24,265 bases of DNA, taken from a virus. The stretch spans positions 1 to 24,265 of IMG/VR virus record IMGVR_UViG_3300027909_000064; one strand, written 5' to 3'. A model generated the notes under the pieces. That model worked only from the letters and a program-made list of their open reading frames with translations. It made no database searches and was not told the origin of the DNA. Below, in pieces: positions 4,201 through 21,361 of this stretch; the stretch's first letter is position 1, and each line of letters opens with the position of its first letter. The position numbers and the translations under genes are program-made.

Positions 4201-4235
4201 TTTACCTTTCGTCCCAATTGCACTACGTCTGGCAT
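1224..4235 (-). CDS. Large virion protein, probable ejection (internal) protein
   Basis: 1003 residues, Ala/Gly-rich. The N-terminus has a 17-residue motif of the type GxKVKxKYPGxYDDxxD twice (residues 8-24 and 28-44), then a Pro-rich linker. Hydrophobic or glycine-rich segments lie near residues 178-235. Around residues 670-770 is a block beginning SPRYVASRL, followed by a hydrophobic stretch and then DFGKIKLGTWRYDLGAG. I associate this block with the large polyvalent protein-associated domain LPD38 and with very large phage virion proteins, but it is unverified. The C-terminal 150 residues are charged and helical. Its size, final position in the structural operon and hydrophobic segments fit a podovirus ejection protein delivered into the cell with the DNA, the role of the large internal proteins of T7 and P22. 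No lytic transglycosylase or lysozyme motif was seen. It starts in a TAATG overlap with the previous gene. Confidence 0.75.
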   Translation of the reverse strand: MPDVVQLGRKVKNKYPGVYDDLPDGVVGQKVKAKYPGAYDDFTDTTYTPPPPEAPGILGNLSTGFKQLGQKVSDVGASAYEIGREALHGNFAPLKETAEITGRATLPYLAGAANSRGPGAAFTGMSAAQAPAIEAVKQRQTARREASGDVYFRGSAIENAKLAAEAAKDPSLLGKLTRGAPQVLPYIGAGVATGGSGAAMAATGALMELNAPENIPLAAGLAAVPIPVGQAFKASVNAVRRTFGKGAAQIIEAEAGGVALPPASGAVSPGVQRAMSQFEQEVARIKTLPPAQQAAEMEAAIQRVSSEASGVRPVSAETRAGYPPLMEFPENPNAIQMAGRLPGETAAPGASIRPFQEAKTASMPVHSLKPGDIIEYEVGVPPRTVQGEVARVQFDPDLETMVPVVKAGNAEMAAVEYLDGGRVVNQATMRGPSNVAAMDTAPPRLSAEFGPPQFGVKAAPDLGYTETVGPSVSAPINLDAALTEAAESIPRPRAERIKDEFLGTLGAFKSIKSMGDISAVLRQGGILFLRPFQAKQSAKALGQMFRAFKEKNYTAIHEAIAAHPDLPVMQEAGLYLGGPSGAIQKGEEAFIKRSGSWVGEKVGKAPGVKQSDQMYVTMLDSQRVQRFQQFKQAIDKLGLSSEEAMKGYKAAAQWVNIATGRGSLGQTIDKAFEALNYTIFSPRYVASRLNILNLPMYIKNGMTPAGRAVLRGQMADLVQYLGVVGATMYAAKQAGADVTLNPHDRDFGKIKLGTWRYDLGAGLTQALKMTYLVGEDMVRAGKYFVGKGEPPGRNDAIDVAQTFLSYKLSPPAQVFKNFVEGRTIDKKRYTPGQAAVDLAAPMQWADFVDAYQKEGLAGIGKASFGTTGIGVQNFEQTPVEAAIERAQPLFTELKRLGKQVSDLRKTTKQEFKNGKWVQVENEDDASFNRRVQQFGQNYTLYGLQLLDSPRFRQAPDSVKVLALDALNERAKQLTKAEFPFPELQLDANTLMDSAEATAAKRTK
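4104..4214 (-). repeat. Tandem 17-residue coding repeat
   Basis: Within the 1003-residue gene, residues 8-24 (GRKVKNKYPGVYDDLPD) and 28-44 (GQKVKAKYPGAYDDFTD) are near-identical copies with a 20-residue (60-base) period. Most differences between the DNA copies fall in wobble positions or conservative codons, so the duplication is old enough to have diverged under selection for protein sequence. Confidence 0.85.
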
Positions 4236-5221
4236 TATCTTATCCCTAGTGGGTCAGCTTTTTTACCTTGTGGCGTTGCCGTCTTCGCACTGGAAGCCCC
4301 GCCGCCCACGTAGCCGACGACTTTTACCGGCTTTCCGTCAATTATCACCCTACCCGTCTTTTGGTCTACCAGCGACGACGGGATTATCTGTCCATTTTCG
4401 AGCTGCGCCATCAACTTCCCGCCGCCTGCTCCGCCGCCTGTCGGCCTGCTAGCCAATATCTCAGCCCGTTTGGCCTGCGCGTTCAGCCATTTTTGAGCGG
4501 CAGGCGACAATGAGTCGCTGATTTTGGCGTAATAGTTCCCAAGTTCTTCCGCAATTCTGGCTGGCGCGGCCCCTGGCCCTCTCCCCAACTGCGACGCGAA
4601 GACACGCGCGTCCCGTTCCTGCTGGGCTTTCTCTTTCCGCCGCTGTTCAGCCGCCGCACGTTCGTCGTCTTCGCGCTGACGCCTGGCTAGCAGCGTATCG
4701 CGGAACATTTCAAGTTCGCGCTGGTCGGTCAGGTGCAGTCTGCGCGCCTCTCTGTCCACTTCGGCGGCAAATTGCCGGTCTGACACCTGTTGCGCCCTAG
4801 TTGTCTGTCTTTCCTGCTCCCGTTGCGCCTTTTCAAGCCCGCGCGCGCCCAATTCCGCGCCCAGCTGGTTGTAATTCTCAAGCTGTCGTTGATATTGGCG
4901 CTGTGGTTCCTGCAATTGCTGTAAAAACTGCGCGCCGTTGCCCTGAAAGCCCGCGCCGAAGCCCGCCAACGCGTTGAATATCCGCTCCGCCTTACTCCTC
5001 GGCGCTGGCGCAGTGGGCGCAGGGCCACGGAGCGCCAACATGTGCTGGATAATTCGCGTATCAAGGGGCGCTTGCGGCGGTTCCGTCACCTGTGACGGCC
5101 CGCCGTACTCAGGGACGTTGCCCGTCGGGGCAGGGGCCATCGGTACAGGGGTAGCGGGCGCTGGAACCGGCGGCAATTCGTCCCTATTGAGAGCCATCAG
5201 TAAGTCTAGAATAGTAGCCAT
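4235..5221 (-). CDS. Coiled-coil virion protein, probable ejection protein
   Basis: 328 residues. The N-terminus is Pro/Ala-rich (residues 18-75). A short glycine-rich segment (ALAGFGAGFQGNGAQFL, about 86-102) leads into a long Gln/Glu/Arg-rich region, about residues 104-215, expected to be a continuous helix or coiled coil (for example QREQERQTTRAQQ). The C-terminus has a small domain with beta-like segments (GQIIPSSLVD, RVIIDGKPVKVVGYVGG) after a Gly-rich linker. No enzyme motif is visible. It lies between two other Ala/Gln-rich structural proteins, with a GGGGTGAT ribosome binding site and TAATG coupling to the 1003-residue gene. The trio resembles the podovirus ejection-protein clusters (P22 gp7/gp16/gp20, T7 gp14/15/16) in position and composition; I infer that role from context, not from homology. 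Confidence 0.65.
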   Translation of the reverse strand: MATILDLLMALNRDELPPVPAPATPVPMAPAPTGNVPEYGGPSQVTEPPQAPLDTRIIQHMLALRGPAPTAPAPRSKAERIFNALAGFGAGFQGNGAQFLQQLQEPQRQYQRQLENYNQLGAELGARGLEKAQREQERQTTRAQQVSDRQFAAEVDREARRLHLTDQRELEMFRDTLLARRQREDDERAAAEQRRKEKAQQERDARVFASQLGRGPGAAPARIAEELGNYYAKISDSLSPAAQKWLNAQAKRAEILASRPTGGGAGGGKLMAQLENGQIIPSSLVDQKTGRVIIDGKPVKVVGYVGGGASSAKTATPQGKKADPLGIR

Positions 5222-5225
5222 ATCA

Positions 5226-6170
5226 TCACCCCGTCTTGTATGCGCTATACGCTGTCCCGCCGCCCTGTAGCAGCCCTGACGCCGCGTTGAGAGTCTTCAG
5301 GAACTTGTTAAACGGACTGTTCTGCTGGTCTAGCGCCTGCTTGTTGAGTTCTAGTCCGACTTGCTGCAAGCCGAAGTTCTTGTTGAACTGTCTCATAGCC
5401 TCATCCAGTCGTTGCTGGTCTAAGCCTAGTCCTGCGCCCGCAATGTCACGCTGGTTCTGCTGTCCTGACAGGTTCGCTAGTAGACTGGCCAAGTCCTGAT
5501 TCTGCTGTAGTCCCGCGCCGGTGAGATATTGGCGCAATTGTAAATTGCGATTCGCCGCATCGCTGGATTGCTGCTGCTGTACCAAGCCTAATTGCTGCGC
5601 GAACCTTGCCGCCGCATCGTTGGCGATTGAGGATTGATTGACTCTGTTGCCGTAAAGCTGCGCTACAAGCTGTCCGCGCGCGTCTTCACCCTGTTGCGCG
5701 ATGCGCGCCTTCTCGGCGTCGGATATGGCCTGTAGTTGCGCAGCCACCTCGGGCGGCAGTTCGGCCAGCTTCGTCGGGTCAAGCGATTGCTGTAAACGTG
5801 TCTGTAGTTGGGCGATGAAGTCTTGCTGGCTCTTATTCGGTAGTATCGGCGGTCGGTCCGACACGTTTTGAACCTGCCCGCTTGACGCATCGGCCCCGGC
5901 GCGCGTTAGGGTATGCGTGTACCCGTCGGCGTCTTTGAACTCCACCTTGAACGGCGTCATGTTGGTTATCTGGCTGCCGGGTGGGACTCTGCTGCGCAAG
6001 TCGCCGTATTTCGTGTCAAGAAAACGGGCGTATTCTGGCGACTTAAAGAATATTTCCGGCGTGATGCGGTGGCCCTCTCTGTCTATCTGGTCGTAGAGCT
6101 TCTCAAGCTCGTATTCCGTCGGCGTCAGCGTCTTAGTGTCTCTAGGTGCGAATAAATAGCTACGCCCCAT
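5226..6170 (-). CDS. Gln-rich virion protein, probable ejection protein
   Basis: 314 residues. Residues 1-100 are a mixed domain (GRSYLFAPRDTKTLTPTEYE...). From about residue 115 to 290 the protein is strikingly Gln/Ala/Asn-rich with almost no charge clusters (LVQQQQSSDAANRN, GLQQNQDLASLL), probably helical. The end has a small Gly-rich hydrophobic stretch (ASGLLQGGGTAYSAY). The composition fits internal virion or ejection proteins. A very strong ribosome binding site (TAAGGAGG) precedes the ATG, suggesting high expression. It is the first of three consecutive genes of this type. I know of no named family, and the ejection role is inferred from composition and order. Confidence 0.65.
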   Translation of the reverse strand: MGRSYLFAPRDTKTLTPTEYELEKLYDQIDREGHRITPEIFFKSPEYARFLDTKYGDLRSRVPPGSQITNMTPFKVEFKDADGYTHTLTRAGADASSGQVQNVSDRPPILPNKSQQDFIAQLQTRLQQSLDPTKLAELPPEVAAQLQAISDAEKARIAQQGEDARGQLVAQLYGNRVNQSSIANDAAARFAQQLGLVQQQQSSDAANRNLQLRQYLTGAGLQQNQDLASLLANLSGQQNQRDIAGAGLGLDQQRLDEAMRQFNKNFGLQQVGLELNKQALDQQNSPFNKFLKTLNAASGLLQGGGTAYSAYKTG

Positions 6171-6794: not shown

Positions 6795-7009
6795 TATTCC
6801 TCCGGCTTGTCCGTCGGCTTCTTCGGCGGGAAGCGATATTGCAATTCCCGTTTCAGGAAATGCGCAACGACAACTCCGACGGCTAGAGTCAGTATCGCCG
6901 TCGCAAACTGCGTCACACTACTGGCAGCGGTAAACATACCCACCACCACCCCCAACGTCGCCCATCCTGTGCTGTCTACGTGTTGCCCCATTGTTTGTTG
7001 TAACCTCAT
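6794..7009 (-). CDS. Small membrane protein, candidate holin
   Basis: 71 residues, or 65 if started at the second Met. Two adjacent hydrophobic segments (about residues 15-32 and 36-54, e.g. GVVVGMFTAAS and AILTLAVGVVVAHFL) are followed by a charged Lys/Pro/Glu tail. This is the size and layout of a two-span (class II-like) phage holin, which would permeabilise the inner membrane at lysis. It overlaps both neighbours (ATGA upstream, TAGTG downstream). No endolysin or spanin pair was recognised nearby, so the assignment rests on topology alone. A membrane-anchored accessory protein is the main alternative. Confidence 0.45.
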   Translation of the reverse strand: MRLQQTMGQHVDSTGWATLGVVVGMFTAASSVTQFATAILTLAVGVVVAHFLKRELQYRFPPKKPTDKPEE

Positions 7010-7380
7010 TTCACCCTTTCAGGGGGAGAATTGGTTAGATACTTGTTCTGTAGAGTTGCGGCTAGATGCCGCGCTAGTAGTTCCGGCCCGCGCCCTGTGT
7101 GGATTGACAACTTGTACTCCCCGGCTGTCACAACCAGTACAGCGGCTGCGTAGCCGTAAAAGCGTTCTTCCTCTTTCAGCGGCGTCATTACCACATAGAT
7201 ATCGAAGTCCGGCTTGCGCGACGCCACCATCAAGTTTCGGTTCTGCCGCAGTTCGTGCCACAGTGTTTCCGTAAATGGCCCCTCTGCCGGGTCAACGGAT
7301 AGCGCGAAACTCAGCGGTTTGAGTGGCGCTTGGGCCGTTACCGGAATAAACAGCAATGCTATTAAGAGAAAAGTCTTCAT
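7006..7380 (-). CDS. Exported small protein of unknown function
   Basis: 124 residues with a clear Sec signal peptide: MK, then a run FLLIALLFIPV, then TAQA with likely cleavage after Ala18. The mature part of about 106 residues has no Cys, no second membrane span and no lipobox. It shows alternating beta and helix segments (DFDIYVVMTPLK, AAAVLVVTAGEYKLSIHTG, LLARHLAATLQNKYL). It should be periplasmic or secreted. It directly precedes the holin-like gene (ATGA overlap), so a lysis or envelope role is possible, for example a periplasmic inhibitor or a lysis accessory factor. I do not recognise the family. Signal-peptide proteins are unusual inside a tail-gene cluster. Confidence 0.65.
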   Translation of the reverse strand: MKTFLLIALLFIPVTAQAPLKPLSFALSVDPAEGPFTETLWHELRQNRNLMVASRKPDFDIYVVMTPLKEEERFYGYAAAVLVVTAGEYKLSIHTGRGPELLARHLAATLQNKYLTNSPPERVK

Positions 7381-8635: not shown

Positions 8636-10261
8636 TCACACGTCGGTTACGCGCTTGTTATTCAAAATCAGATAGTTCAATTCAAAGTCCTGTATGGTGA
8701 AGCCTTCGCCCGCCTGCGAGTTCGACACATTGAAAGTGATATCCTGTGACTCGCGCCCGATGCTGTTCGACTTCAGCGGCCTAACGATATCGTTCTGTCC
8801 GCTAAAAGTTGTTCCCCACAGTCCCGCGCCCCACAAGCCACCAGCCCATAGCGAGCCGGTGCTTATCCCTGTCAGTCCGAAGCTATAAGAGTCCGTCCGT
8901 AGTATGTTTTGGTCGTAGTAGTATGCGACGTTTATCCCGGCTGTGGCGCTTAGCAGGTTCAGCCCTATCCCCCATTCAACCCATGCTTTCTTCAGCAGTT
9001 GCGCGCCGCCGTTAAATGACTTCATCGTCATGGCTTTCGTGTACGCGCTGCCCTGGTCGGAGAACGCCGCAGACGTGGCGCGCGGCTGGTAGGTGAATAG
9101 CTGATAGTTGCTGCCGCCGCTGTTCAGCGCGCCTATCACGTAGACTTTCCCCGTTGCGCCGGGGAACGAAGTGTAAGCCGTCCCGGCAACCATGCCATCG
9201 AACCGCGTCCACCGCACAACGCCTTCATCAATTCTCAAGTAGTCCAGCACGTAAACCATCTTGTTGCCGTTAGGCGCAACGGATGTCGGTAGGCTTATCC
9301 AATACTGCGCCCCGGTGTCGCAGAACAGTGACGGAATTTCAAGCGTCGTCTTCGGAAAGTTCGTCAGTTCTTTAATGTTCCGGCTGTAGAAGGCAGTGCG
9401 GAAGTCCTCAGCCGTCTGGACTAGGGACAAGCTGGCAATCCCCTGGTCGGAGAGGAATACAACGTCATTGGGGATTTGCTGGATGGAGTACGGCCCGGCG
9501 CAGCCTATATCCTTCGTCACCACTTCTCGCCGTATGTTGTTCGCGTCCGTGTTAGGGTCTGCGAACGCGACAAGACGGTGGATGCTATGCCGTTTAAAGA
9601 TATACAGCGCGTCGCGGGTAGAAAACAGTCCAGTGATGGGGTCGCCATCATTCGTATCAATGTCAATATCTATCTTTCCCGCCGCCCCGGTCGCCGTCCA
9701 ATCTTCCGGCAGTCCAAGCGCCGAACCATGTACCCGGCTAAATGCGGACGCCGACGCTATCCACACCCGGCTATTCCACACCGCGATATATTTACCGCGT
9801 GGTGGACTTCCGCCGAGGGCAGCTGCGGTAGATGTGGAATCCACTTTTACCGGGTTCGTCCCCGAGGTGGCCCCGTTGACGCCGATAGCCAACCCCCCAA
9901 ACGTTACCCACTGCCAAAATGTGTTATTGGGAAATGTCAGCGCGCCGGTCAGGTTCGTTAGTCCCGTCCCGTTCGTCTCGATTATCTGTAGTTTTGTTCC
10001 TTCCGTCAGAAGGATGCCGATTTCGCCCGCGTCTATCGTGAAGTAGTGCAGGGAAGTGATGCGAGAGAACGTGTCGGCGGATAGCTGAGTCACGCCGCGC
10101 CGAGTGGACAGGTTGCCGTTATCGTCAACCTCGAAGTTCAGCGCGTCTTGTAGGGCATTGTCCTCTATTTCGTTCGGAGGCGTGGCTGTGTTGATTCCCA
10201 ATTTCCAGTCTCGAACCCGCAGCGGCTGTACGCCTATTGAATCTAAATTCGTGCTAGCCAT
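8636..10261 (-). CDS. Tail hub / nozzle protein (P22 gp10-like beta-propeller type)
   Basis: 541 residues from ATG 10259-10261, placed because GGAGGG lies just before it; a longer open frame to 10384 runs through the endonuclease gene. The opening pattern IEDNALQDALNFEVDDNGNL followed by TRRGVTQLS is typical of podovirus tail hub or stabilisation proteins, which begin with N-x-L-x-x-x-x-N and R-x-G-x-x. Repeated beta blades follow with short W/Y/F-rich strands (e.g. YIAVWNSRVWIAS, ALYIFKRHSIHRL, KVYVIGALN). A Gly/Trp run (SLWAGGLWGAGLWG) occurs near residues 475-490. I infer a six-fold tail tube or nozzle with beta-propeller folds, as in P22 gp10 and T7 gp12, connecting the adaptor to the fibres. 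The assignment is from pattern and position, not alignment. Confidence 0.7.
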   Translation of the reverse strand: MASTNLDSIGVQPLRVRDWKLGINTATPPNEIEDNALQDALNFEVDDNGNLSTRRGVTQLSADTFSRITSLHYFTIDAGEIGILLTEGTKLQIIETNGTGLTNLTGALTFPNNTFWQWVTFGGLAIGVNGATSGTNPVKVDSTSTAAALGGSPPRGKYIAVWNSRVWIASASAFSRVHGSALGLPEDWTATGAAGKIDIDIDTNDGDPITGLFSTRDALYIFKRHSIHRLVAFADPNTDANNIRREVVTKDIGCAGPYSIQQIPNDVVFLSDQGIASLSLVQTAEDFRTAFYSRNIKELTNFPKTTLEIPSLFCDTGAQYWISLPTSVAPNGNKMVYVLDYLRIDEGVVRWTRFDGMVAGTAYTSFPGATGKVYVIGALNSGGSNYQLFTYQPRATSAAFSDQGSAYTKAMTMKSFNGGAQLLKKAWVEWGIGLNLLSATAGINVAYYYDQNILRTDSYSFGLTGISTGSLWAGGLWGAGLWGTTFSGQNDIVRPLKSNSIGRESQDITFNVSNSQAGEGFTIQDFELNYLILNNKRVTDV

Positions 10262-10715
10262 AGCCCTCCATGTAAGCAAGAGCGCGACGGAGCATCTCCG
10301 GGCTATCCTTGAATTTACCAAGCGCGCTATTACATGTGCGGCAGAGAAGCCCGCGCACGCGCCCTGTTTGGTGGTCATGGTCAACGCACAGCGGCTCTAG
10401 CTCACCGTTTCTCACTATTCTTTCAGGTTGTTCACAAATCGCGCATCTGGACGCTTGCGCTTCAACCATTGCTCGATAGTCGGCGTCAGTTAACCCGTAA
10501 GCTTTAAGCTGTTTTTTTCGACGCCAAGCCTTGCCATTCGCCGCTTGCGAGATTTTATGTCTTTCGTGTCTGGCCTTTTTGTATCCTGGGCTTTGCGTCT
10601 CTCGGGCGTTCCGGTAGCACGCGTCGCAATGCCCTTTAAGCAGTGACACTATCGGCTTCAGCTTGCCGCACACGCTGCAAACGGCTCGCGGACGATTCCT
10701 GTTATATCCTGACAT
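10254..10715 (-). CDS. Endonuclease VII-like HNH (His-Me finger) nuclease
   Basis: 153 residues. An N-terminal zinc knuckle uses C13/C16 and C30/C33. A basic segment (KKARHERHK) follows. The catalytic module has C91/C94, then VDHDHQTGRVRGLLCRTCN with D112, H113, H115, C125/C128 and N129. This matches the T4 endonuclease VII / recombination endonuclease VII family, where Asp-His, a second His and Asn form the metal site. The start at 10713-10715 is chosen for GGAGG six bases upstream; the frame is open a further 79 codons without good signals. It is free-standing between tail adaptor and tail hub genes and its stop overlaps the hub start by eight bases. Possible roles are homing of its own gene, or resolution of branched DNA during packaging. 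Given a position inside the tail genes, I favour a homing-type gene. Confidence 0.85.
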   Translation of the reverse strand: MSGYNRNRPRAVCSVCGKLKPIVSLLKGHCDACYRNARETQSPGYKKARHERHKISQAANGKAWRRKKQLKAYGLTDADYRAMVEAQASRCAICEQPERIVRNGELEPLCVDHDHQTGRVRGLLCRTCNSALGKFKDSPEMLRRALAYMEGYG

Positions 10716-10878
10716 TGAATGCCTCCGATTTGACGAAGGCGTGAAGGTGGGTAATGATAGGAATGAGCTATCAATCCGCCCTACACGCGGGTTGCTAGTC
10801 GGCTGGCGGTGAGTCTCAATCACCGCTGGCCACTTCTTTAGCCGTCCTGATAATACCACATTGGCCATTGCTTCTTCA
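10716..10878 (-). other. Non-coding leader with two hairpins
   Basis: This is one of the few non-coding gaps inside the operon. It holds two strong inverted repeats. One is at 10801-10831 (GCGGTGA/TCACCGC, seven pairs, seven-base loop, plus three outer pairs across a 2x2 internal loop). The other is at 10755-10773 (TGATAG/CTATCA, six pairs, seven-base loop). A 13-codon frame (10838-10879) starts in a TAATG overlap with the adaptor stop. Neither hairpin has a following T tract, so they do not look like terminators. Plausible roles are translational control of the endonuclease or a mobile-element boundary. Confidence 0.5.
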
Positions 10879-11586
10879 TTAAACAAACGGGTTCTTGAAA
10901 TGAGAGGGGTCGAATATCGCCTGCGCCCTGCCGCCGCCACTGGGTAAATCATTCCATCTCTGCTGGGTGGTAGCCGCTACTTTGCGCTTCTCCCGCTTTT
11001 CCAGCTTGTCAACCAAGTTCTGGTAAATGCTGCGCTGGTCTTTCGCCCTATCCAACATTCCATCGAGGTCGTATAACTCAGCCTTGACGTAGTAGCGAAT
11101 GAGGGGAATAAACTGTTCCAGAACCGGTATAACCGTTGAAGTGGCGACTTCTGACGGGTGGAAGTAGTACGTCCGTTCAACGGTGAGAACAGAGTTAGGA
11201 ACAGGCGCGAGTCGGAACTGATAGAGGACATTCGCCCCGCTCACCAAAATGCCGTCTTCAACCCAAACTCGCGCCCTGCCTGAGTCCTCAAGTTTCGCCA
11301 TATACCGCGCCGCTTCCTGCGTCCCCCATAACCATATCGGCTCCCCGGTGTCGGTGTAGCGCAGTTGCTCAATATCGCGCCCGCCGACGGGAAGCTGGTA
11401 TGTTGGTACTGTGGCAGCAGTCGAGAACGTGGAACGGGTCTTGAACATGTTGTAATTCGTAGTAATCGCAATATTGTCTAAAGCGTCGTTGACGCGCTTC
11501 TCCACCCTCTGGACAAAGCCAGCGTCATCGGTGGATTTCTCCATGTTTTGCAATATTTCGATTGCTAACGAATTAGGCGTTGCCAT
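10879..11586 (-). CDS. Head-tail adaptor-like protein
   Basis: 235 residues. It begins with a helical segment (LAIEILQNMEKSTDDAGFVQ), followed by beta strands (VPTYQLPVGGRDIEQLRYTD) and a core where a strand of the form YQFRLAPVPNSVLTVERTYYF leads into helices (IPLIRYYVKAELYDL) and a charged coil (LDRAKDQRSIYQNLVDKLEK). The helix-beta-helix layout with R-L-x-P-x-P ... Y-Y matches the adaptor ring proteins that bind under podovirus portals (T7 gp11 / P22 gp4 class). The position between the capsid genes and the tail hub gene supports this. The start codon sits in a TAATG overlap with the previous gene. Family membership is inferred from pattern and position. Confidence 0.6.
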   Translation of the reverse strand: MATPNSLAIEILQNMEKSTDDAGFVQRVEKRVNDALDNIAITTNYNMFKTRSTFSTAATVPTYQLPVGGRDIEQLRYTDTGEPIWLWGTQEAARYMAKLEDSGRARVWVEDGILVSGANVLYQFRLAPVPNSVLTVERTYYFHPSEVATSTVIPVLEQFIPLIRYYVKAELYDLDGMLDRAKDQRSIYQNLVDKLEKREKRKVAATTQQRWNDLPSGGGRAQAIFDPSHFKNPFV

Positions 11587-12119: not shown

Positions 12120-12308
12120 TTAGTACATCTTCTTACCGCGCGCTTTTCCCATGACGCCGCGAACAGCGGTTATGGGGTGGTTGGTGGCGACGCCGCCCTT
12201 AACGCTGGGCTTCTGTGGCCGCGCGCCTCTGGGGACTGTCTTCCCCATCAACTTGAAGCCGGTCTTGACGCCGGTCAGGTTCGGTTTCCCTAGATTCTTC
12301 ATTGGCAT
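12120..12308 (-). CDS. Small basic protein overlapping the transferase gene
   Basis: 62 residues with about 13 Lys/Arg and almost no acidic residues (KNLGKPNLTGVKTGFKLMGK..., ending RGKKMY). It begins with MPMKN; AGGAG (12316-12320) lies seven bases before the first ATG, an excellent ribosome binding site. The first 110 bases lie inside the 3' end of the glycosyltransferase-methyltransferase gene in a different frame. A gap of nine bases then leads to the next gene. A small basic protein in a head/tail operon could bind DNA or an acidic virion surface, but no motif identifies it. The strong start signal is the main evidence that it is real. Confidence 0.6.
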   Translation of the reverse strand: MPMKNLGKPNLTGVKTGFKLMGKTVPRGARPQKPSVKGGVATNHPITAVRGVMGKARGKKMY

Positions 12309-13704
12309 GATTTGTCTCCTCTAGTAAGTGCGCCAATTCATTCGGCACACATATCAAGTTACAGTGAGTCGCCACGATTGGCGTGTACCCTTTGGCTTTC
12401 GCCATGTAGTGAATTGGATGCGCGCCCGCTTGTGTGCCTTCCGCGCCCGGTTCCGGGATGTACATCCCCGCGACTCCCGGCGCGAACTCGACACAGATGA
12501 CACGCGGGCGGTACTTGGTTAGTGAGTTCCACAGGTGATAGTCCTGCCCATCTACGTCAATGACGAGTAAATCAATGTCCTCTGGTGCGCCCGCCCGCTT
12601 CAATATGTCGTCAATTCGGTTGCCGGGCTTAAGCCCTGCGAATTGTTGGACGCAGTGGACGCGCGGGTTATCCTTGTAGCGGGTTGATAGTTGTTCGAAG
12701 AAGGCCGGGTCTGCTTCCACTTGAATAGCGTTCCAGCCGTCCTCTATAAGCTTCCGAGTGTTCGAAAAGAACAGCCCATCACTTGCGCCGCATTCAAAAC
12801 ACCACTTATTTTCAGTGCCTATCCGGTTGAATATCGCTTCAATGATGGAGTCCTCACCGAACTGCGAAGTGTGATTCCAGGGTTCGATGCCCGCGATAAA
12901 TGGGATAAATCTGGTGTCTTGCTTCCTGTCTGCCCCGTCGTACGTGTAGCCCGATACCCTCACCAGTTCCGGCTTGCCTTTCTCGATATAATCCGCCGCG
13001 TTCTGTCTCGTGATGCCGAACTGCGCGTTCGGCCACAGTATTTCCTCGTCTATGTGGCCGATGCGAACATCGTTCGCTAAGAATGCCTTGTTTCCTGCTT
13101 CGCGGAAGACGTTCCAGAAGTGAATATCGGCATCCGTCTTCCCGTCCTCCCATTCGCCGTCTTTGTTGGGCTTGTCCCAGAACCACGGCTTCGGCGTCCG
13201 TTTCAGCGCGTCAGCCTTTATCAGCGTTAAACCGAAATGCCCGCCCGCGACAGGAACCAATTCACCCTGGAGCCGCTGCGCCGTGACAGACTTAACCGGC
13301 TGGTTGTTCTCATCTCGGATTAGCAGCAGCATTTCGTCATACCCGCCGCGCCTGACTTGCCACGGCAGGATGGCGTCCGCCTCGTCGTACCGTGCGGCAA
13401 GAAGAAGCAGTTCGAGAATGTCTTCCTTGTGAAAGATTGAGTCGTAATCAATCGTGATTATCCAGTCGCAACCTGCTTCAATTAGCAGGTTAATACCCCG
13501 CTGTAGGCAAGCGCCCCAGCCGTAGCCGGTTATTTTGATAACCGGGATTTGCATGGCGTCGAACGCCCGTTGAAGCGCGCCCCAATGGGTAGAAAATGCG
13601 AGGCGGGGAACCGAACAAACAGCGCCAATGCGAACTTCGCGCCGCTCTCCGGTTCCCTGCTCCTCAAGTATCCAGGGGGCTGCATCTATTTCGAGTTTTT
13701 GCAT
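12199..13704 (-). CDS. Glycosyltransferase (GT-A) fused to FkbM-type methyltransferase
   Basis: 501 residues in two enzyme domains. Residues 25-245 look like a GT-A (GT2-like) glycosyltransferase: an N-terminal Rossmann-type strand (VRIGAVCSVPR), then WIITIDYDSIFHKEDI with the DxD sugar-nucleotide/metal motif at D86-D88. Residues 278-453 match FkbM-type (Methyltransf_21) methyltransferases: SQFGEDSIIEAIF, the SAM-binding loop FECGASDGLFFSNT (303-316), GWNAIQVEADPAFFEQL, and the DLLVIDVDGQDYHLWNSL strand (378-395). The expected chemistry is sugar transfer plus O-methylation of a glycan or peptide, in the cytoplasm. It follows the decoration-like gene with TAA-ATG abutting and no strong ribosome binding site. 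The last 37 codons overlap the next gene and are charged and low complexity, so they may be dispensable. Substrate unknown: capsid or fibre glycosylation and host-surface modification are both possible. Confidence 0.8.
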   Translation of the reverse strand: MQKLEIDAAPWILEEQGTGERREVRIGAVCSVPRLAFSTHWGALQRAFDAMQIPVIKITGYGWGACLQRGINLLIEAGCDWIITIDYDSIFHKEDILELLLLAARYDEADAILPWQVRRGGYDEMLLLIRDENNQPVKSVTAQRLQGELVPVAGGHFGLTLIKADALKRTPKPWFWDKPNKDGEWEDGKTDADIHFWNVFREAGNKAFLANDVRIGHIDEEILWPNAQFGITRQNAADYIEKGKPELVRVSGYTYDGADRKQDTRFIPFIAGIEPWNHTSQFGEDSIIEAIFNRIGTENKWCFECGASDGLFFSNTRKLIEDGWNAIQVEADPAFFEQLSTRYKDNPRVHCVQQFAGLKPGNRIDDILKRAGAPEDIDLLVIDVDGQDYHLWNSLTKYRPRVICVEFAPGVAGMYIPEPGAEGTQAGAHPIHYMAKAKGYTPIVATHCNLICVPNELAHLLEETNHANEESRETEPDRRQDRLQVDGEDSPQRRAATEAQR

Positions 13705-14193: not shown

Positions 14194-15273
14194 TTACGCG
14201 CCAGCGAAGTTAACGCGCCCCTGACGGCGACGGTTGCTGAGTACAAGGTTGCCGTACATCAAGCATTTGATGCTGGCCGAGTCCTGGTTATCGGGCTGGA
14301 TTGGGTCAGTGAACGTGAACTCGTAACCCTCGCCAAACACCATCTTGGCGTAGTCGAGATTCAGCGCCACGCAACCGAAACCGGCGGTGTTCGAGACGGA
14401 ACCGGCAGCAACCGATGTATTCGGCTGCATGTCCTCGTCCCACACGTGGGGAACGCCCATATAGACGACGTTCTTGAATCCGGCCTGGCCTAACGCCGCG
14501 TCCGTAGCATCCGGCCCACGGACTAGTTGCTGTTTAGCTTCCAGTCCCTGAAGCAGTATCAGGTAGGCGGTGCGAACCATCACAACGAGATGCGGACTGT
14601 CGGAACCCGCCATGCAAGCGACAATCAGGGCGCGCAGTCCATCGAACAGGTTGTTGGAACCGGTTGGGGAAGCGGCGTTGATGTTCGCCCCGCCCGTCGC
14701 CGTACCTGACAAGCCAACGCCAGTGGTTGTGAAGAACTGATTGCGCCAGGTGGTGTTCTGCGCAGAATCAAGCGTCCCATAGGTTCCTGTCTGCGGGTCA
14801 AACGGAATCGCGGATTGATAGCCAATCAACGCCTTGCCACCGTCGGCTGAGCCGTCCGATGGTAGCGCCTGGTTGACTTTGCGCTTCATGGTGATGGCCA
14901 AGCGCTGGCCCATCGCGTCCCACAGGTCAATGATTTGGCCGGGGCCGCTGTTCTGGAACTTCTCGAAGCCTGAAATCTGTTCGACGCCCGCCAATTGCTT
15001 GAACGCGTATTCCGCGCCCGTTGCAACTTCGGTGCGGGTCATATCGAGTGGGTCATAGCCGGAATACCACTTGGCGCTAGCGGCATCATCCAGCATGATT
15101 GGCTCGAAGATTGTTTTACCCTGCCGCGTGACTATCCCGCCAAGTTGCCCAAGCATCCATAAAACTACCTGGTTGCTTGTAATGTTGTCAGTCAAGACGC
15201 GGCTGAAATCAGTCAATGACGTCGCGTCCACTTGCGCCCAAGTGGTGCGAAGCATCGTTCCTGGTACTGCCAT
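14194..15273 (-). CDS. Major capsid protein (HK97-fold family)
   Basis: 359 residues. Characteristic segments are WYSGYDPLDMTRTEVATGAE followed by FKQLAGVEQISGFEKFQNSG (the region after the N-arm), a NTTWRNQFF segment, LIVACMAGSDSPHLVVMVRT, GFKNVVYMGVPHVWDEDM and an end of the type YGNLVLSNRRRQGRV. These occur in this order in a large, widespread family of phage major capsid proteins, which I recognise clearly. Length is normal. It follows the scaffold gene with TAG overlapping a GGGAGA ribosome binding site, and precedes the decoration-like gene. No fused protease or scaffold domain is seen, consistent with a separate scaffold. Confidence 0.9.
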   Translation of the reverse strand: MAVPGTMLRTTWAQVDATSLTDFSRVLTDNITSNQVVLWMLGQLGGIVTRQGKTIFEPIMLDDAASAKWYSGYDPLDMTRTEVATGAEYAFKQLAGVEQISGFEKFQNSGPGQIIDLWDAMGQRLAITMKRKVNQALPSDGSADGGKALIGYQSAIPFDPQTGTYGTLDSAQNTTWRNQFFTTTGVGLSGTATGGANINAASPTGSNNLFDGLRALIVACMAGSDSPHLVVMVRTAYLILLQGLEAKQQLVRGPDATDAALGQAGFKNVVYMGVPHVWDEDMQPNTSVAAGSVSNTAGFGCVALNLDYAKMVFGEGYEFTFTDPIQPDNQDSASIKCLMYGNLVLSNRRRQGRVNFAGA

Positions 15274-15282
15274 TGTGTCTCC

Positions 15283-16191
15283 CTAGACTGTGATGGGTCG
15301 CGCCCGTCCAGTCTGCTGGTTGTGGAAGATAATCCGGCCCAGTGCGTTGACGTTCATCAATGCGGCTGGAAGCGCCGGTTCTCCTGCGCCACTGACACCA
15401 TTACGCGGTGGCAGGCTGTGCGCCTGCGCTGCTTTCTGCGCCGCTTCTTGCGCGGTAAGTGTGCGTTGGCCTGGTTTGACGCCTGGTGAGGACGCCGCTG
15501 GTTGAGAAGTAATCTGACTGTCGGCTACCAATTGGTAGGCCGCTGGAATAGAGAATTGTCCGCCGGACTTCGCTACGAGTTGTAGCGCCTTGTCCATAAA
15601 CGGCTTGAAATTCGGGTCGTGGCCGTAGTCGCCTAATACGCTGTTGTATTGCCGGGTATACTCCGCCGCTTGCATTGCGCCTTCGTGCGGCGCTAGTGCG
15701 GACTGTACGGACTGCTGGACGGTTGCCTGGATATAGGCGTTGTTCTGTTTGTGGAACTCTTTCACCTGCGCCGGGTCATAGAAGTCGAACTCTGCCGGGT
15801 CTGGCGGCTGCGGCCCTTGTGGTTGCGCTGGTTGCCCGCCCATACCTTGCGCCATGGCCTGCATCGTCTGCTTTAACTCAGCTATTTCCCGGTGCAGGGC
15901 ATCGTAGGGCTGGCTTGTTTGCTGCTCAGTTGTATACGAAGCGGCGCGACTGCCGTCGTCAACCGGCGCTTCCGCCGCTGGTTCCTCTGCCGCTGCTTCC
16001 TGAGGAACCCATCTAAGTTGGCCGTTCTCTTTCCATTCCGGCCTATATTCCGGCGCTGTTGGCGCTGCTAGGCGGACAGTGTGCAACGACTTACGTTGGG
16101 CCAGCGGTGACGGCGCATCCGGTGCATTACGCGGTGGCCCCTCGCCCTCTGATACTACATTTGTTCCGCCAACTGGCACTGTGAATTGCAT
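15283..16191 (-). CDS. Scaffold protein
   Basis: 302 residues, acidic and Pro/Gln/Ala-rich with no globular enzyme motif. The N-terminus (1-90) is disordered and acidic (QEAAAEEPAAEAPVDDG). A helical middle follows (ALHREIAELKQTMQAMAQGM), then Pro/Gln-rich and helical stretches (FHKQNNAYIQATVQQSVQ), and a basic C-terminal end with KPGQRTLTAQEAAQKAAQAH. This composition, directly upstream of the major capsid gene, is the standard signature of a phage scaffold that templates procapsid assembly. GGGAGGA lies close before the ATG, and a candidate promoter lies just upstream. No protease motif is seen. Confidence 0.75.
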   Translation of the reverse strand: MQFTVPVGGTNVVSEGEGPPRNAPDAPSPLAQRKSLHTVRLAAPTAPEYRPEWKENGQLRWVPQEAAAEEPAAEAPVDDGSRAASYTTEQQTSQPYDALHREIAELKQTMQAMAQGMGGQPAQPQGPQPPDPAEFDFYDPAQVKEFHKQNNAYIQATVQQSVQSALAPHEGAMQAAEYTRQYNSVLGDYGHDPNFKPFMDKALQLVAKSGGQFSIPAAYQLVADSQITSQPAASSPGVKPGQRTLTAQEAAQKAAQAHSLPPRNGVSGAGEPALPAALMNVNALGRIIFHNQQTGRARPITV

Positions 16192-16262: not shown

Positions 16263-16673
16263 CTAACTGTTATCTCTAATAAACTTCTCGCCGTCTGCGC
16301 CGCCAAGCCCCAACCCGGATGGCCCGAACGTCTTTACATTCCACTCATGCACGTCTTTGGCAAGCTTTTCCTTCTTAGCGTCCTGTGCTTTATCGGCTAT
16401 CTTGTCCCACGCTTCCCGGTCGGTTCGGTCGCCGACGGGAACGTGGTTGCGCCGCGCCATTTCGGCTTTTAGTTGAGATGAGGACGTGACATAGCCGTAG
16501 TTCGTAGTTTTGACGCCGTGCCAATAGGTATCGGGCCGCATCACCGTCAGAGAGAAGACACGAGGCGCTGGCACATCGCACGTCGGGCAAGGTTGGTATT
16601 CGACGCCCACCACGCGCGGGAACAGCGCCTCGAACTTGCCGTGTTCCTCACAAAGAAACTCGTAAATCGGCAT
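16263..16673 (-). CDS. FmdB-like zinc-ribbon protein
   Basis: 136 residues from ATG 16671-16673; the frame is open further upstream but that part lies inside the barrel gene and is not protein-like. The N-terminus MPIYEFLCEEHGKFE with C8/H11, then CPTC (C29/C32), is the FmdB/CxxC_CxxC zinc-ribbon pattern, with His replacing one Cys. The start MPxYEFxC is the family hallmark. After the zinc site the protein is helical and Lys-rich (KIADKAQDAKKEKLAKDVHE), so the zinc ribbon is fused to a long helical tail. Homologues are frequent next to scaffold or portal genes in phages; the role is unknown, possibly protein binding in head assembly. The stop of the barrel gene lies one base before the ATG. 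Confidence 0.75.
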   Translation of the reverse strand: MPIYEFLCEEHGKFEALFPRVVGVEYQPCPTCDVPAPRVFSLTVMRPDTYWHGVKTTNYGYVTSSSQLKAEMARRNHVPVGDRTDREAWDKIADKAQDAKKEKLAKDVHEWNVKTFGPSGLGLGGADGEKFIRDNS

Positions 16674-16674
16674 A

Positions 16675-17244
16675 CTAGAACCTGAAACCTGCGCCCGCCC
16701 CGTACTTGTGAGTTGAGGGGCCAGCGAACCGGGCCAGAAACTCATATTCGATAAAGAACGGACGGACGAAGAAATGGCCTAGCGCGATGTCAACGCCCGC
16801 CTGATAGCGGCGGACAAAATGACGGGTGGCCACGTCGGTTGGGTTGCGGAACCCGAACAGCGCCGTAGCGAACGGTTCAACCGGGCCAGCTTTATAGCTA
16901 AGTCGCGGGCCGAATGAGTAGGTGTCGGTGTCCCGCTTAACGACGTTGAACCCGACGGCGGTGGCGACGGGCGGCAACGGGTCTTTCGGATATGTCATCG
17001 GGTCAAGCATCGTCACGTCAAACGTGCGCTGAAGGTTGAAGACGCCGCCGATGCGGAACCCGCCCTTGCTGACTATCTTTCCGTCAACGTCCAGCCACAA
17101 GCCGTTGAGATATTCGGCGGCTTCGTTCGGGTCGAACTTGAACTCATTGCCGACGTAGCCGACGGCGATTTTGACTTTATCCTGCGCGAACGTCGAAGCG
17201 ACGAACGCGACCAGAAATGTGAGTGTAAGGATAATTTTTCTCAT
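16675..17244 (-). CDS. Outer-membrane beta-barrel protein with signal peptide
   Basis: 189 residues from ATG 17242-17244 (AGGAG five bases before). A Sec signal peptide (MRKIILTLTFLVAFVASTFAQ) is followed by alternating amphipathic strands (VKIAVGYVGNEFKF, FRIGGVFNLQRTF, YSFGPRLSYKAG, VEPFATALFGFR, QAGVDIALGHFFVRPFF, YEFLARF), ending YGAGAGFRF with the C-terminal Phe that the BAM machinery recognises. The mature length of about 168 residues fits an eight-stranded barrel of the OmpA/Opa class. The sequence style recalls small Acidobacteriota barrel proteins. Phage-encoded barrels (lambda Lom is the classic case) can alter the host surface or block superinfection. It sits between portal and scaffold genes and is coupled to both neighbours (ATGA upstream). 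Confidence 0.7.
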   Translation of the reverse strand: MRKIILTLTFLVAFVASTFAQDKVKIAVGYVGNEFKFDPNEAAEYLNGLWLDVDGKIVSKGGFRIGGVFNLQRTFDVTMLDPMTYPKDPLPPVATAVGFNVVKRDTDTYSFGPRLSYKAGPVEPFATALFGFRNPTDVATRHFVRRYQAGVDIALGHFFVRPFFIEYEFLARFAGPSTHKYGAGAGFRF

Positions 17245-17474
17245 TCTTCTCCTGTTAGTGTTTTGGTGTTGTAGCAATACAGTTTTAGCGCGCGCACTTC
17301 CCGCATCCGCCCCGCTTCCCGCAGCATTACATGGGCCGCGTGACGAACCTGATTCAGCATGCTGTCTACAACCGCTTCGGCCCATTCCTCGGTGTCGAAC
17401 TTCGCCATCTGTTCATCGTCAATGGCGTTGATTACAACTAGCGGCCACGGACTGTCGTTGTCTTCTTCTGCCAT
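17241..17474 (-). CDS. Small acidic protein of unknown function
   Basis: 77 residues. The first half is acidic (EEDNDSPW, NAIDDEQMAKFDTEEWAE) and the second half helical with several Arg (HAAHVMLREAGRMREVRALK). There is no signal peptide or membrane segment. It starts with an excellent ribosome binding site (AAGGAGAGGG before ATG) and its stop overlaps the barrel start as ATGA, so it is co-translated with the outer-membrane protein. It may form a functional unit with it or be a small head protein next to the portal. No family recognised. Confidence 0.65.
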   Translation of the reverse strand: MAEEDNDSPWPLVVINAIDDEQMAKFDTEEWAEAVVDSMLNQVRHAAHVMLREAGRMREVRALKLYCYNTKTLTGEE

Positions 17475-17493: not shown

Positions 17494-19419
17494 CTACTGC
17501 ATGAAGCCGCGCATTGACTGCATTAAGTCTTCTACGCTTCCGCCCTCTCCTGGTTGTCCCACCCCCGGCGTCTGTCCCACTGGCGACGGCGCATTTGCCC
17601 CGCCTATCTCTGGCGTCATCGCCGGGCCTCCTGGCTCCTGTCCCGGCCCATTGCCTACGCCCAACGTCATTGGCGTGCGGGACGAACGGAAGAATCTGGA
17701 CTTATCCTTCACGCCGAACTTATCCAGAACCCAGCCGACAAGCGCTGGCATGTCGAACGTGTCGGGCGCGCCGGTTTGGGCCAATGCGGATAGCGACTGC
17801 ACGGCAAGTTGAAATATCTGTAGCGCCTGCTGTTTCTCCAAGTCGGGGTCAGTCTTCGGCGCCGCGAAGTAATTCACCTCAACGTCAACGCCCGCTTGAA
17901 TGTCTTCGTTGGTGTACGCCTCCCAAGACACGCCCTCTTTGCCGACAACCTGTATCACGTCGGCGGTGGTGCGGTACTTCTTCAAGTGCCCAAGTATCTG
18001 CGTCGCCACGTCTTCAACGAACTCTTCAAAGTCTTCGACGTGCTGGTCTAGCTTGAGTCCGGTGAGTCTGGCGCGCGTCCCTACCTCACCCGCTGTCGTG
18101 CGAGAGGGAAGCGCCCTGCCTTGAAGTAGCGCGTCGGCCCCCGTCATCTCTTCGATGGCGCGTTCAAGGTTCTGCTTGTAAATCTGGAACATCTGCGACA
18201 GGTCGGCGGGCTGGATGGCCTTAAAGTCCCCGACTACTACGTCGTCGCCGTTTGCGAACTTAACAACTTCTTCGGGGTTTGTGCCTTCACTTGCCGCCGT
18301 GCGTGGGCGGCTTTTTCGCATCACGTCCTGTTCGAGCGTCGCCGCGCGGTTTATCTGAACTTGCTGGTCTTCTATCCAGCGGGGAAGCCCTATGCCGTAT
18401 GGCTGGTTGGGAGCTTCAATGTACTTACACATGACGTAGGGGAATGTTGTCCCCAGATGGGTGTACGGCCAATCTTCGGAGACTAGCGGATGTGGGCAAC
18501 CGTCGGCGTAAACCATCCGTTTCTGATACTTCTTGTCCCAAATCTCAATCAGTGTGACTAGGTTGTCTTCCGGCAGCGCGAACGATTGCAGCCCCTTCAT
18601 TGCTTTAGGGTCAACGCCCAGCGACGCCCAATTCGTCTGTGTCGTTGGCGAATATTCGCCGCTATAGAGCAGCCCTAGCGTCTCCCGGTCGTAGTCCTTA
18701 TTGGCCAACACGTCGGCGTAGGGGACGAAGAAGACTTCGCCGCACCAGCGCGCCGTGCGAAGCGTCCTGTCTCTGCCTCCCCAATCAAACACGAAGTTAA
18801 GCGGGTTGACGCGTTCGACGTATGGCGCATCCTGCTTTACATAGTCGGCGTAGTTGATAACGCCGTCGTCTTTCGGCTTCTTGCTTTCGTCCACTTCCAC
18901 CGTATAACCGGGCTTGGCGATACAGTGGCCGATGATAACCATGTCCCGCGCGCAAACTTTTATCGCGTTGGTCATCTTCCGCTTGCGCCATTCATAGTTG
19001 AGTAGCGCCTGTTGAATCATTGCGCTTACGTCGTCGTCGGGGCGCTGCGGCTTCAATAAGAACTTAATTTCATCGTTGATGAGGAAGGGAACTATCGAGT
19101 TGATGATACTTCCCGTTTTGTTAATTGTGGCTGTGTCGCGCGGGTTGTCAGAATTGACTTGCCCGCCCGTTCCACCTCTATCGTCCCACTGTTCGCCCTC
19201 ATACCAGCGGTAGTATCTGCGCCAACTTCTTTCGCCATTCTTCAGCATCAGCCGGGCTTGCCGGGTCATCGCTATGCGGGAAAGCCATATCTCGCCGTCA
19301 ATCTTCGGGTCGCCCGTTTCGCTGCGGACGCTGGCGATAGCCTTTCTTCCACGGCTGCGGCGCGTTGCCACCGGGCCGTCGGGGAAGACGATAGGAACTG
19401 TCAGTTTCTTGCGTGGCAT
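17494..19419 (-). CDS. Portal protein (podovirus P22-type)
   Basis: 641 residues. Early segments WRRYYRWYEGEQWDD and NKTGSIINSIVPFLINDEIKF are followed by KVCARDMVIIGHCIAKPGYTV and ERVNPLNFVFDWGGRD, a central GIGLPRWIEDQQVQINRAAT, and a long stem/wing helix region (LERAIEEMTGADALLQG, then LPSRTTAGEVGTRARLTG). The C-terminus is Pro/Gly-rich and flexible (GNGPGQEPGGPA...), ending EDLMQSMRGFMQ. These features and their order match the large portal proteins of short-tailed phages that form the dodecameric packaging and ejection ring. It directly follows the large terminase (stop, one base, ATG) with AGGA as ribosome binding site. Confidence 0.9.
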   Translation of the reverse strand: MPRKKLTVPIVFPDGPVATRRSRGRKAIASVRSETGDPKIDGEIWLSRIAMTRQARLMLKNGERSWRRYYRWYEGEQWDDRGGTGGQVNSDNPRDTATINKTGSIINSIVPFLINDEIKFLLKPQRPDDDVSAMIQQALLNYEWRKRKMTNAIKVCARDMVIIGHCIAKPGYTVEVDESKKPKDDGVINYADYVKQDAPYVERVNPLNFVFDWGGRDRTLRTARWCGEVFFVPYADVLANKDYDRETLGLLYSGEYSPTTQTNWASLGVDPKAMKGLQSFALPEDNLVTLIEIWDKKYQKRMVYADGCPHPLVSEDWPYTHLGTTFPYVMCKYIEAPNQPYGIGLPRWIEDQQVQINRAATLEQDVMRKSRPRTAASEGTNPEEVVKFANGDDVVVGDFKAIQPADLSQMFQIYKQNLERAIEEMTGADALLQGRALPSRTTAGEVGTRARLTGLKLDQHVEDFEEFVEDVATQILGHLKKYRTTADVIQVVGKEGVSWEAYTNEDIQAGVDVEVNYFAAPKTDPDLEKQQALQIFQLAVQSLSALAQTGAPDTFDMPALVGWVLDKFGVKDKSRFFRSSRTPMTLGVGNGPGQEPGGPAMTPEIGGANAPSPVGQTPGVGQPGEGGSVEDLMQSMRGFMQ

Positions 19420-19420
19420 T

Positions 19421-21361
19421 TCAATGTCCTGGGACTCTTAAACCGCGTTGACGTGCTAGCCTGTGCGCTTCCCAGGCAAAACTGCCGCGTGGTATTTCCT
19501 GGCGCGGCGGTGAAAAACGGTGGATATGCTTCTTGAGAAAGCGGGCAATCATTGCTGCTGAAACGAAATCATCTTTCGTCCCCGGCGCGCCGCCTAGTTT
19601 GTTGTTCTTCAACACCTGATAGGTTTTAAGTTGGTCTATCAACTTCACGCTGCGGAATAGAATGGTGTGGTTGACTATCTCTTCGGCCAAGTCCGATACC
19701 AGCTTGCTTTTGCCGTCGGCTGTCACGTTGACGCCAGGAACGGTATCGCGGCGCGTCTTGCCGGTGAACATATCGCGCGGAAAGTACAGCAGGGGATAGC
19801 GCCATACTTTGTGCAGATAGTCGTTAACCACCGCGCCGCCCCGCTCGTTGTGTTCGACACCTAGCAAAGCCGTGTCGTAGAGACGGCCAAGCCAGTTCAG
19901 TAATTCCGCGAAGTCGTGCGGCGCGATGACAGCGTTGAAGCTGGCTACTTCTTCAGTCTCGTCGGCAGAAACCGCGAGAACCACAGCAGCCGACGGGTCA
20001 GCGTCAGCAGACATTCCCATAGAAGTATCCGCGCCGATAACAAAAGAAGTGTGCTCACGCTGGAACTCTCCGGGCAGTCGGTAGAAGTAGACTTTGCCGT
20101 AGCCGTCGGCACGGTGGAATTTGCGGTTGGGGTGGATTTCATCGTCATTTTGTATCAACTTGCAGCGTATTGGGGTGTATCCCTCAGCTAGAACGTGGGC
20201 GCGCATCTCTTCCAGGCTTTCGTGGTCAAAGAGGTTCTTCGCGCCGGTAGCGAAACTGTCGGCAGGCGTTAGTGGGTATTCGTGCCGGAATACCTGCAAG
20301 TCGCCCATGCAATCCGTGTCAATCTTCCTGCGCCGCCAGTGAAGGCGTAAACGAAGTTCCTTTTCTACCCACTCGTCCCCACCTTCGTCCACTTCCTCTG
20401 GGTACCAGATAGGCAATGCTTCACGAATATGGCGGCTAACGTCCATCTCGTCGCCGTAGCGCGAGTCGGGGTCAACGGACAGTTCGCCCAACTTGTCGTA
20501 GACGAGTTTCGGCGTCCGGTATTCGTCGAACGCGCACCAGGGAATGAAGACTTTGCGGTACTCGTTCTTTGTGTCCGTCCACCATACCGTAGCCTCGTTC
20601 TCCCCTTTGGCCGTGGACTCCATGATGAGTATTGTCCCGGCCTCCTTCGCCATTACCTGAAGCAGCCCGCCCATCTGGTCTTTTACGTTAATGCCTAGTC
20701 CCGGCCACAGGGCAAATTCCGATAAGTGAACCGCGTGAAAGTTATAACTGCGTCCCAGCTCGCCACTAGCCGCCGTGTTGAATACGAGTTTGCTTTCAAG
20801 CCCGACTCCGACGCCGCGCTTGCGCTTAAGTGTCGGGGTTCCGAAGTACACCAACACCCGGTTTTCCGTGTGGGTTTCCGGCTTCAACATCGGATGAAGT
20901 TGCGCATACATTGAACGGACGCGGTGGTTGAAGTCGAAGGTGTTGGCTTCCTTGTGGGCGCATATCAGGGCTTCGCGGTTCGCGCGCAGAGATGTCAACC
21001 AAAGAAAGAATGCAAGCCAGAACGTAGAGACGCCCTCTTGTCGGGCTTTCAGGATGAACCAGCGGACGGGGCGACGCGCAGCTAAGTCCTCAACTAGCCA
21101 TTCCCACATTCGCCGTTGAATACGGTTGAGTTTTAGCCGGACGCGGTCGCCCTTTTTGGTTTTTATAAAGCAGTTGATGGCGCACCAGACAGGGAAGTCC
21201 CATTCCTTCAAATCGGTGAAGCGACGCTGGATGTACGCTTCGCGGTCTGCGTCGTATAGCGCAAGTTCCCGTTCCACGCGCGCCGGGTCTGGCGTGGCTA
21301 GCCTGAGCGCGTCAACGGCCAAGTCTGTGGCGCTATTTTGTTGTATCGCCGTCGTCGTCAT
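19421..21361 (-). CDS. terL: Large terminase subunit (packaging ATPase/nuclease)
   Basis: 646 residues. The ATPase has a Walker A-like KARQEGVST (105-113), Walker B HAVHLSEFALW with the catalytic Glu at 215, and a coupling motif IMESTAKGE (246-254). The C-terminal RNase H-like nuclease has Asp in VIGADTSMG (D445), Glu in LLGVEHNERGG (E503) and the TKDDF pair (D597/D598). Order, spacing and length are normal for TerL, which binds the portal, pumps DNA into the procapsid and cuts concatemers. It overlaps the 3' end of the candidate small terminase gene by 29 bases and precedes the portal gene. Several in-frame Asp/Glu near 300-330 are not part of the catalytic sets. Confidence 0.95.
   Translation of the reverse strand: MTTTAIQQNSATDLAVDALRLATPDPARVERELALYDADREAYIQRRFTDLKEWDFPVWCAINCFIKTKKGDRVRLKLNRIQRRMWEWLVEDLAARRPVRWFILKARQEGVSTFWLAFFLWLTSLRANREALICAHKEANTFDFNHRVRSMYAQLHPMLKPETHTENRVLVYFGTPTLKRKRGVGVGLESKLVFNTAASGELGRSYNFHAVHLSEFALWPGLGINVKDQMGGLLQVMAKEAGTILIMESTAKGENEATVWWTDTKNEYRKVFIPWCAFDEYRTPKLVYDKLGELSVDPDSRYGDEMDVSRHIREALPIWYPEEVDEGGDEWVEKELRLRLHWRRRKIDTDCMGDLQVFRHEYPLTPADSFATGAKNLFDHESLEEMRAHVLAEGYTPIRCKLIQNDDEIHPNRKFHRADGYGKVYFYRLPGEFQREHTSFVIGADTSMGMSADADPSAAVVLAVSADETEEVASFNAVIAPHDFAELLNWLGRLYDTALLGVEHNERGGAVVNDYLHKVWRYPLLYFPRDMFTGKTRRDTVPGVNVTADGKSKLVSDLAEEIVNHTILFRSVKLIDQLKTYQVLKNNKLGGAPGTKDDFVSAAMIARFLKKHIHRFSPPRQEIPRGSFAWEAHRLARQRGLRVPGH

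Follow-up and report, generated by a model that had tools for sequence, protein, structure and literature searches.

Outer-membrane barrels encoded by phages are already known, and the one described here stands out by an unusually clear swapping of alleles. Lom of the temperate phage lambda, grouped with the Ail/OmpX family (PF06316), is a phage-encoded eight-stranded outer-membrane barrel whose gene also lies in the late region. Receptor inactivation has been proven for Llp of phage T5, which inactivates the receptor FhuA (PMC9586334), and Cor of phages phi80 and N15 is a further receptor-inactivating phage protein (PMC11436027).

The window, by which we mean the whole 24,265-base record of a soil bacterial virus that was analysed, encodes among its head genes a predicted outer-membrane barrel that can be compared with each of these systems. 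With the OMP_b-brl family (PF13505) it shares a common fold, a signal peptide and a C-terminal aromatic residue, and its relative L032 exceeds the family cut-off across almost the whole profile (34.4 bits against 28.7; residues 7–170 on profile positions 2–175). However, PF13505 describes bacterial barrels and is matched at all by only four of 11 relatives scanned, whereas the window gene is phage-borne, its alleles appear to be traded between phage backbones, and its product matches no family in Pfam or PHROG. Structure comparison ranks Ail and OmpX with the best matches of the window barrel, but only the fold is shared, sequence identity to Ail is about 15%, and the Ail_Lom model (PF06316) matched neither the window protein nor any member of the sets of 11 and 10 relatives scanned. 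Uncultured tailed phages encode many predicted barrels, among them A0A6J5MAZ5 (COG3637), that are similar in size and fold (Foldseek 1.8e-5, TM 0.65–0.69) at about 12% identity. With Llp and Cor the likeness lies in the proposed effect, the closing of an outer-membrane receptor after infection (PMC9586334, PMC11436027); the proteins themselves differ, since Llp is an early-made lipoprotein, the window protein is a barrel without a lipobox in a late-type gene block, and neither Llp nor Cor is a barrel. A literature search found no paper on the present barrel family.

The barrel gene and its predicted product

A longer, near-identical contig of 39,212 bases (G001; 99.7% identity over 21 kb) reaches past the window on both sides. 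Every relative used was taken from an IMG/VR metagenome contig; many of these contigs are fragments, and none is rated complete. The features of the window on which the analysis draws are as follows.

19421-21361: terminase, confirmed
17494..19419 (-): portal protein, 641 aa, upstream bound of the variable slot (PHROG 156 portal, 8e-31; Pfam P22_portal, 1.2e-17)
17241..17474 (-): acidic protein of 77 aa, present in only some relatives; its gene overlaps the start of the barrel gene as ATGA
16675..17244 (-): predicted outer-membrane beta-barrel protein, 189 aa (residues 1–20 signal peptide, 21–189 mature eight-stranded barrel)
17185..17244 (-): predicted barrel signal peptide, MRKIILTLTFLVAFVASTFA, with Q next (hydrophobicity and cleavage-site check, 15 relatives)
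16948..17004 (-): second outer loop, L2, mature residues 61–79, hypervariable between relatives in sequence as well as length
16263..16673 (-): zinc-ribbon protein, 136 aa, downstream bound of the variable slot (PF09723, 9.7e-8)
15283-16191: scaffold-like gene, identified from position alone
14194-15273: major head protein (phrog_9953, 4e-49)

The barrel gene has its own ribosome-binding sequence (AGGAG) and encodes a protein that starts with MRKIIL (more fully, MRKIILTLTFLVAFVASTFAQDK) and ends in YGAGAGFRF. Because dN/dS lies between 0.09 and 0.16 for close relatives, the reading frame is a real coding gene, and it is under purifying selection. A composition check of 15 relatives found a hydrophobic core at the N terminus of all 15, and in 14 of them a cleavage-like site that precedes Gln; these two features and the charged start persist although the sequence itself diverges. 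In the window protein, the signal peptide contains no Cys that could form a lipobox. The C-terminal residue is F or Y in every complete copy among these relatives.

The AlphaFold2 model of the mature protein, computed with an alignment of 15 diverse relatives, has eight strands (pLDDT value of 75.6, pTM value of 0.67), with short turns on one side of the barrel and loops on the other. A model of the full-length protein, built from seven close relatives, was poor (pLDDT value of 39) and shows residues 2–19 as a helix. Structural matches of the mature model comprise OprF, OmpA, OmpW, NspA and OmpX (VIA-align Z values of 12–17), the highest being a Z value of 16.6 to both OprF (2.1 Å calculated over 124 residues) and OmpA (3.0 Å calculated over 148 residues). 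Foldseek places the model at 3e-5 to OmpA and Ail (about 4e-5 for Ail) and at 1.6e-4 to OmpX. A profile sequence search of solved structures returned nothing significant. Taken as a prediction, an eight-stranded outer-membrane barrel of OmpA/OmpX type is well supported. The sequence-only reading had proposed a barrel with a signal peptide and a terminal Phe, and all three elements hold: the structure prediction gives a transmembrane barrel of eight strands and not a soluble fold, a relative passes the Pfam OMP_b-brl threshold, the protein terminates in GAGFRF, and the signal peptide looks normal by hydrophobicity and cleavage site in the 15 relatives.

Divergence among the relatives is concentrated in L2, where the mean majority frequency is 0.20, against 0.49–0.77 for all other segments, and the gap fraction of the alignment is 0.41; L2 falls in a low-confidence part of the AlphaFold2 model. 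In barrels of this kind, with a periplasmic N terminus, turns T1–T3 are periplasmic and loops L1–L4 external, and the loops were oriented here by these general rules. If the usual topology holds, the variable part of the barrel would face outward.

The slot between the portal and zinc-ribbon genes

Downstream of the barrel the gene order is zinc-ribbon, scaffold-like and major head protein. The zinc-ribbon gene holds the same position in relatives, and its PF09723 score of 32.4 bits is just below the cut-off of 34.4. An initial placement of the barrel between portal and scaffold genes is thus right on the upstream side, where the portal lies, and needs correction on the other, where the zinc-ribbon gene intervenes before the scaffold-like gene. 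Nor are the neighbours strictly virion genes, as that reading had it: the block also includes a glycosyltransferase/FkbM-methyltransferase-like reading frame and an endonuclease VII domain. The former (12199-13704, minus strand, 501 aa) has an N-terminal half that is glycosyltransferase-2-like, below the cut-off, and a C-terminal half that matches FkbM methyltransferase above it; a related reading frame of 405 aa is present in L046, and a 64-aa one stands in its place in L002. It is possible that this is a second surface-modifying cargo gene. The recombination endonuclease VII domain (PF02945, 9.5e-26) lies within a reading frame amid virion genes (10254-10952, minus strand) and is possibly a homing-type insertion. 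Another small protein of 124 aa with a signal-peptide-like start, MKTFLLIALLFIPVTAQA, is encoded at 7006-7380 on the minus strand; no family matched it with a meaningful E-value.

Among relatives that share the window's backbone (backbone A, below), the barrel stays constant in the slot while the other small genes vary. It follows the portal directly in all backbone-A relatives that have it in the portal slot, and no other gene shares the slot with it in L002 and L007. Its companions elsewhere include an 84-aa protein (L004, L005/L006), a 68-aa protein or a fused relative of it (L024, L032), a short hydrophobic protein (L003, L008) and a secreted-looking 75-aa protein (L009). The acidic protein of the window (16 D+E against 8 K+R; no match in Pfam, PHROG or PADLOC) is one more such companion. 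The start of the barrel gene does sit within the stop codon of this 77-aa reading frame, as had been noted, but the proposal of a coupled two-protein system that accompanied the observation is rejected: the acidic family is present in only four of the 11 distinct slots read (the window, L004, L008 and L024), and in L024 another gene separates it from the barrel.

In L005 (5588-5803) and L006 (5296-5511) a homologue of the Acb2/Tad1-hairpin family (PF24729, 34.9 bits against a cut-off of 27) lies immediately downstream of the barrel and is likely to be an anti-CBASS sponge encoded among head genes. On two unrelated backbones (L057:5625-5834 and L073:6434-6640) the gene that comes next downstream of the barrel encodes a small protein of 68–69 aa; these proteins match phrog_1761 (6e-27 and 3e-25) and, weakly, phrog_1454, the PHROG that is matched by the L005 Acb2 homologue.

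The position of the barrel is not invariant. In L030, a 4-kb fragment, the zinc-ribbon gene directly follows the portal and no barrel lies between them; in L073 the barrel is placed before the terminase; and in L041 and L054 it lies outside the head block. L041 (IMGVR_UViG_3300037153_000401), a contig that also has a phage terminase and an integrase, carries just upstream of its barrel a 578-aa Cas12m/Cas12u1-like reading frame (2402-4135; PADLOC Cas12u1 1.1e-15, PDB Cas12m 1.4e-8) and a CRISPR array (4144-5541; 20 copies of a 36-nt repeat, 19 spacers of 34–39 nt). The two resemble a phage-borne type V-M-like system that deserves a look of its own; its spacers had no convincing match among all loci in this analysis.

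Barrel alleles and phage backbones

The barrel family occurs on three backbones: A, which is that of the window; B, represented by L041 and L054; and C, represented by L053 and L057. Portal and terminase proteins of backbone A have no BLASTP match to those of B or C, and the terminases of B and C are 24–26% identical. Across these boundaries, barrels are 81% identical between L032 (A) and L041 (B), the latter having no detectable portal or large terminase (TerL) similarity, 69% between L041 (B) and L053 (C), and 63% between L024 (A) and L057 (C). Within a backbone the discordance runs both ways. L024 and L004, both of backbone A, have portals that are 91% identical and barrels that are 49% identical, and the two C phages L053 and L057 share 70% identity in TerL and 32% in their barrels; conversely, barrels are 77% identical between L024 and L046, whose portals share only 37%, and 79% identical between L003 and the window (both A), whose portals share 45%. 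L032 and L003 are 66% identical in portal and 76% in TerL. In AU tests over ten backbone-A phages, the barrel alignment rejects the portal and TerL tree (P=1.3e-10) and the portal and TerL alignment rejects the barrel tree (P=2.3e-5).

These sequence comparisons give good support to a line of inheritance for the barrel that is separate from that of the phage backbone, and to its horizontal trade, and the identity matrix and AU tests bear out the suggestion that the gene is moron-like. The conflict between barrel and backbone trees is the most useful concrete result of the analysis and can be checked with more genomes.

Lifestyle and possible functions

Of the six large backbone-A contigs searched, five encode an integrase (G001 and G003–G006; not the 27.5-kb G002), and in G001 (L082) a tRNA-Lys (ttt) gene at 1134-1206 stands beside a tyrosine integrase at 1266-2129, a region that is likely to be the attachment site. 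On this basis the phages look temperate. A consensus scan near the barrel gene, using a consensus that may not be that of the host, found no promoter or terminator site beyond chance; the place of the gene among head genes, with no promoter standing out, suggests late transcription. Two scans of bacterial genome contigs with narrow patterns found no relatives of the barrel (the second query combined the L041 barrel with a short marker peptide of Granulicella plasmid origin, and neither part matched), plasmid and phage collections yielded nothing useful, and 50,697 phage records and the PHROGs gave no match to the family at the thresholds used. The barrel may resemble those of Acidobacteriota, a likeness on which no conclusion here is based.

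A role in conflict at the cell surface is suggested by a barrel that appears to be late, secreted and traded, that has one hypervariable loop, and whose slot also takes a probable anti-CBASS gene; the Cas12m-like gene and CRISPR array near the barrel of L041 also fit such a role. We tentatively favour, at a little short of an even chance, superinfection exclusion, in which the barrel, probably expressed late and placed in the outer membrane, would mask or modify a phage receptor. A temperate phage would carry it as a cargo gene in the head-gene block, and the gene would be transcribed late along with the head genes; export of its product would run through the Sec system, and insertion through the Bam machinery of the host. 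The inserted barrel would then cover, displace or alter the receptor used by its own phage and by competitors, so that late superinfection would be blocked and new virions kept off debris; traded alleles with different outer loops may track different receptors or competitors. Several points weigh against superinfection exclusion. Conflict genes lie near the barrel in only some relatives, and exclusion would have less time to act because the barrel, with no standout promoter, may depend wholly on late transcription. Known blockers such as T5 Llp, moreover, are early-made lipoproteins and not late-placed barrels (PMC9586334). An unlikely proposition is that the barrel serves phages as a weapon or shield against one another and comes in interchangeable serotypes: the hypervariable loop would decide which competitor is blocked in its adsorption, and alleles would pass between unrelated temperate phages that infect the same soil hosts.

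The main rival to exclusion is lysogenic conversion, as proposed for lambda Lom, in which a barrel made by the lysogen would change host adhesion, predation or stress resistance and have no anti-phage role. The integrases and the tRNA-Lys neighbourhood, which make these phages look temperate, speak for it, as does the fact that traded cargo genes are typical of lysogenic conversion; the barrel gene, however, is embedded in the head block, separated from its neighbours by short gaps, and the promoter scan found nothing beyond chance near it, and we regard conversion as unlikely. A virion or head-assembly protein would explain the constant position after the portal in the window's family, but such a protein is hard to reconcile with a signal peptide and a predicted transmembrane-barrel fold, with the other arrangements in L030, L073, L041 and L054, or with a barrel tree that conflicts with that of portal and terminase, so that this explanation appears highly improbable.

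Two further roles would place the barrel in the outer membrane to a different end. As a lysis or release factor it would weaken that membrane or aid the last step of lysis, and two arrangements on backbone B are in line with this: the L041 barrel is upstream of a lysozyme-like gene, and that of L054 is flanked by two small proteins for which membrane segments are predicted, the first of them resembling a holin on visual inspection only. Yet no lysis gene adjoins the barrel in the window's family, a lysis tool would not be expected to have well-conserved alleles in which a single outer loop is hypervariable, and the established outer-membrane lysis proteins (spanins, disruptins) are not known to be barrels; we consider the role improbable. 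A small chance is likewise given to a barrel that supplies or mimics a receptor, whether as a host receptor or as a decoy shed in vesicles. It shares its fold with OmpA and OmpX, which commonly serve as phage receptors, and its outer loop is variable as receptor loops are, but there is no obvious gain in giving a receptor to a cell that is already infected.

Should superinfection exclusion prove correct, temperate soil phages with unrelated genomes would be exchanging alleles of outer-membrane proteins, at a site where an anti-CBASS gene can also be taken up. The remodelling of cell surfaces by phages late in infection, which is well studied for only a few coliphage proteins, would become testable in a larger group, and the barrel would serve as a marker for phages with common hosts.
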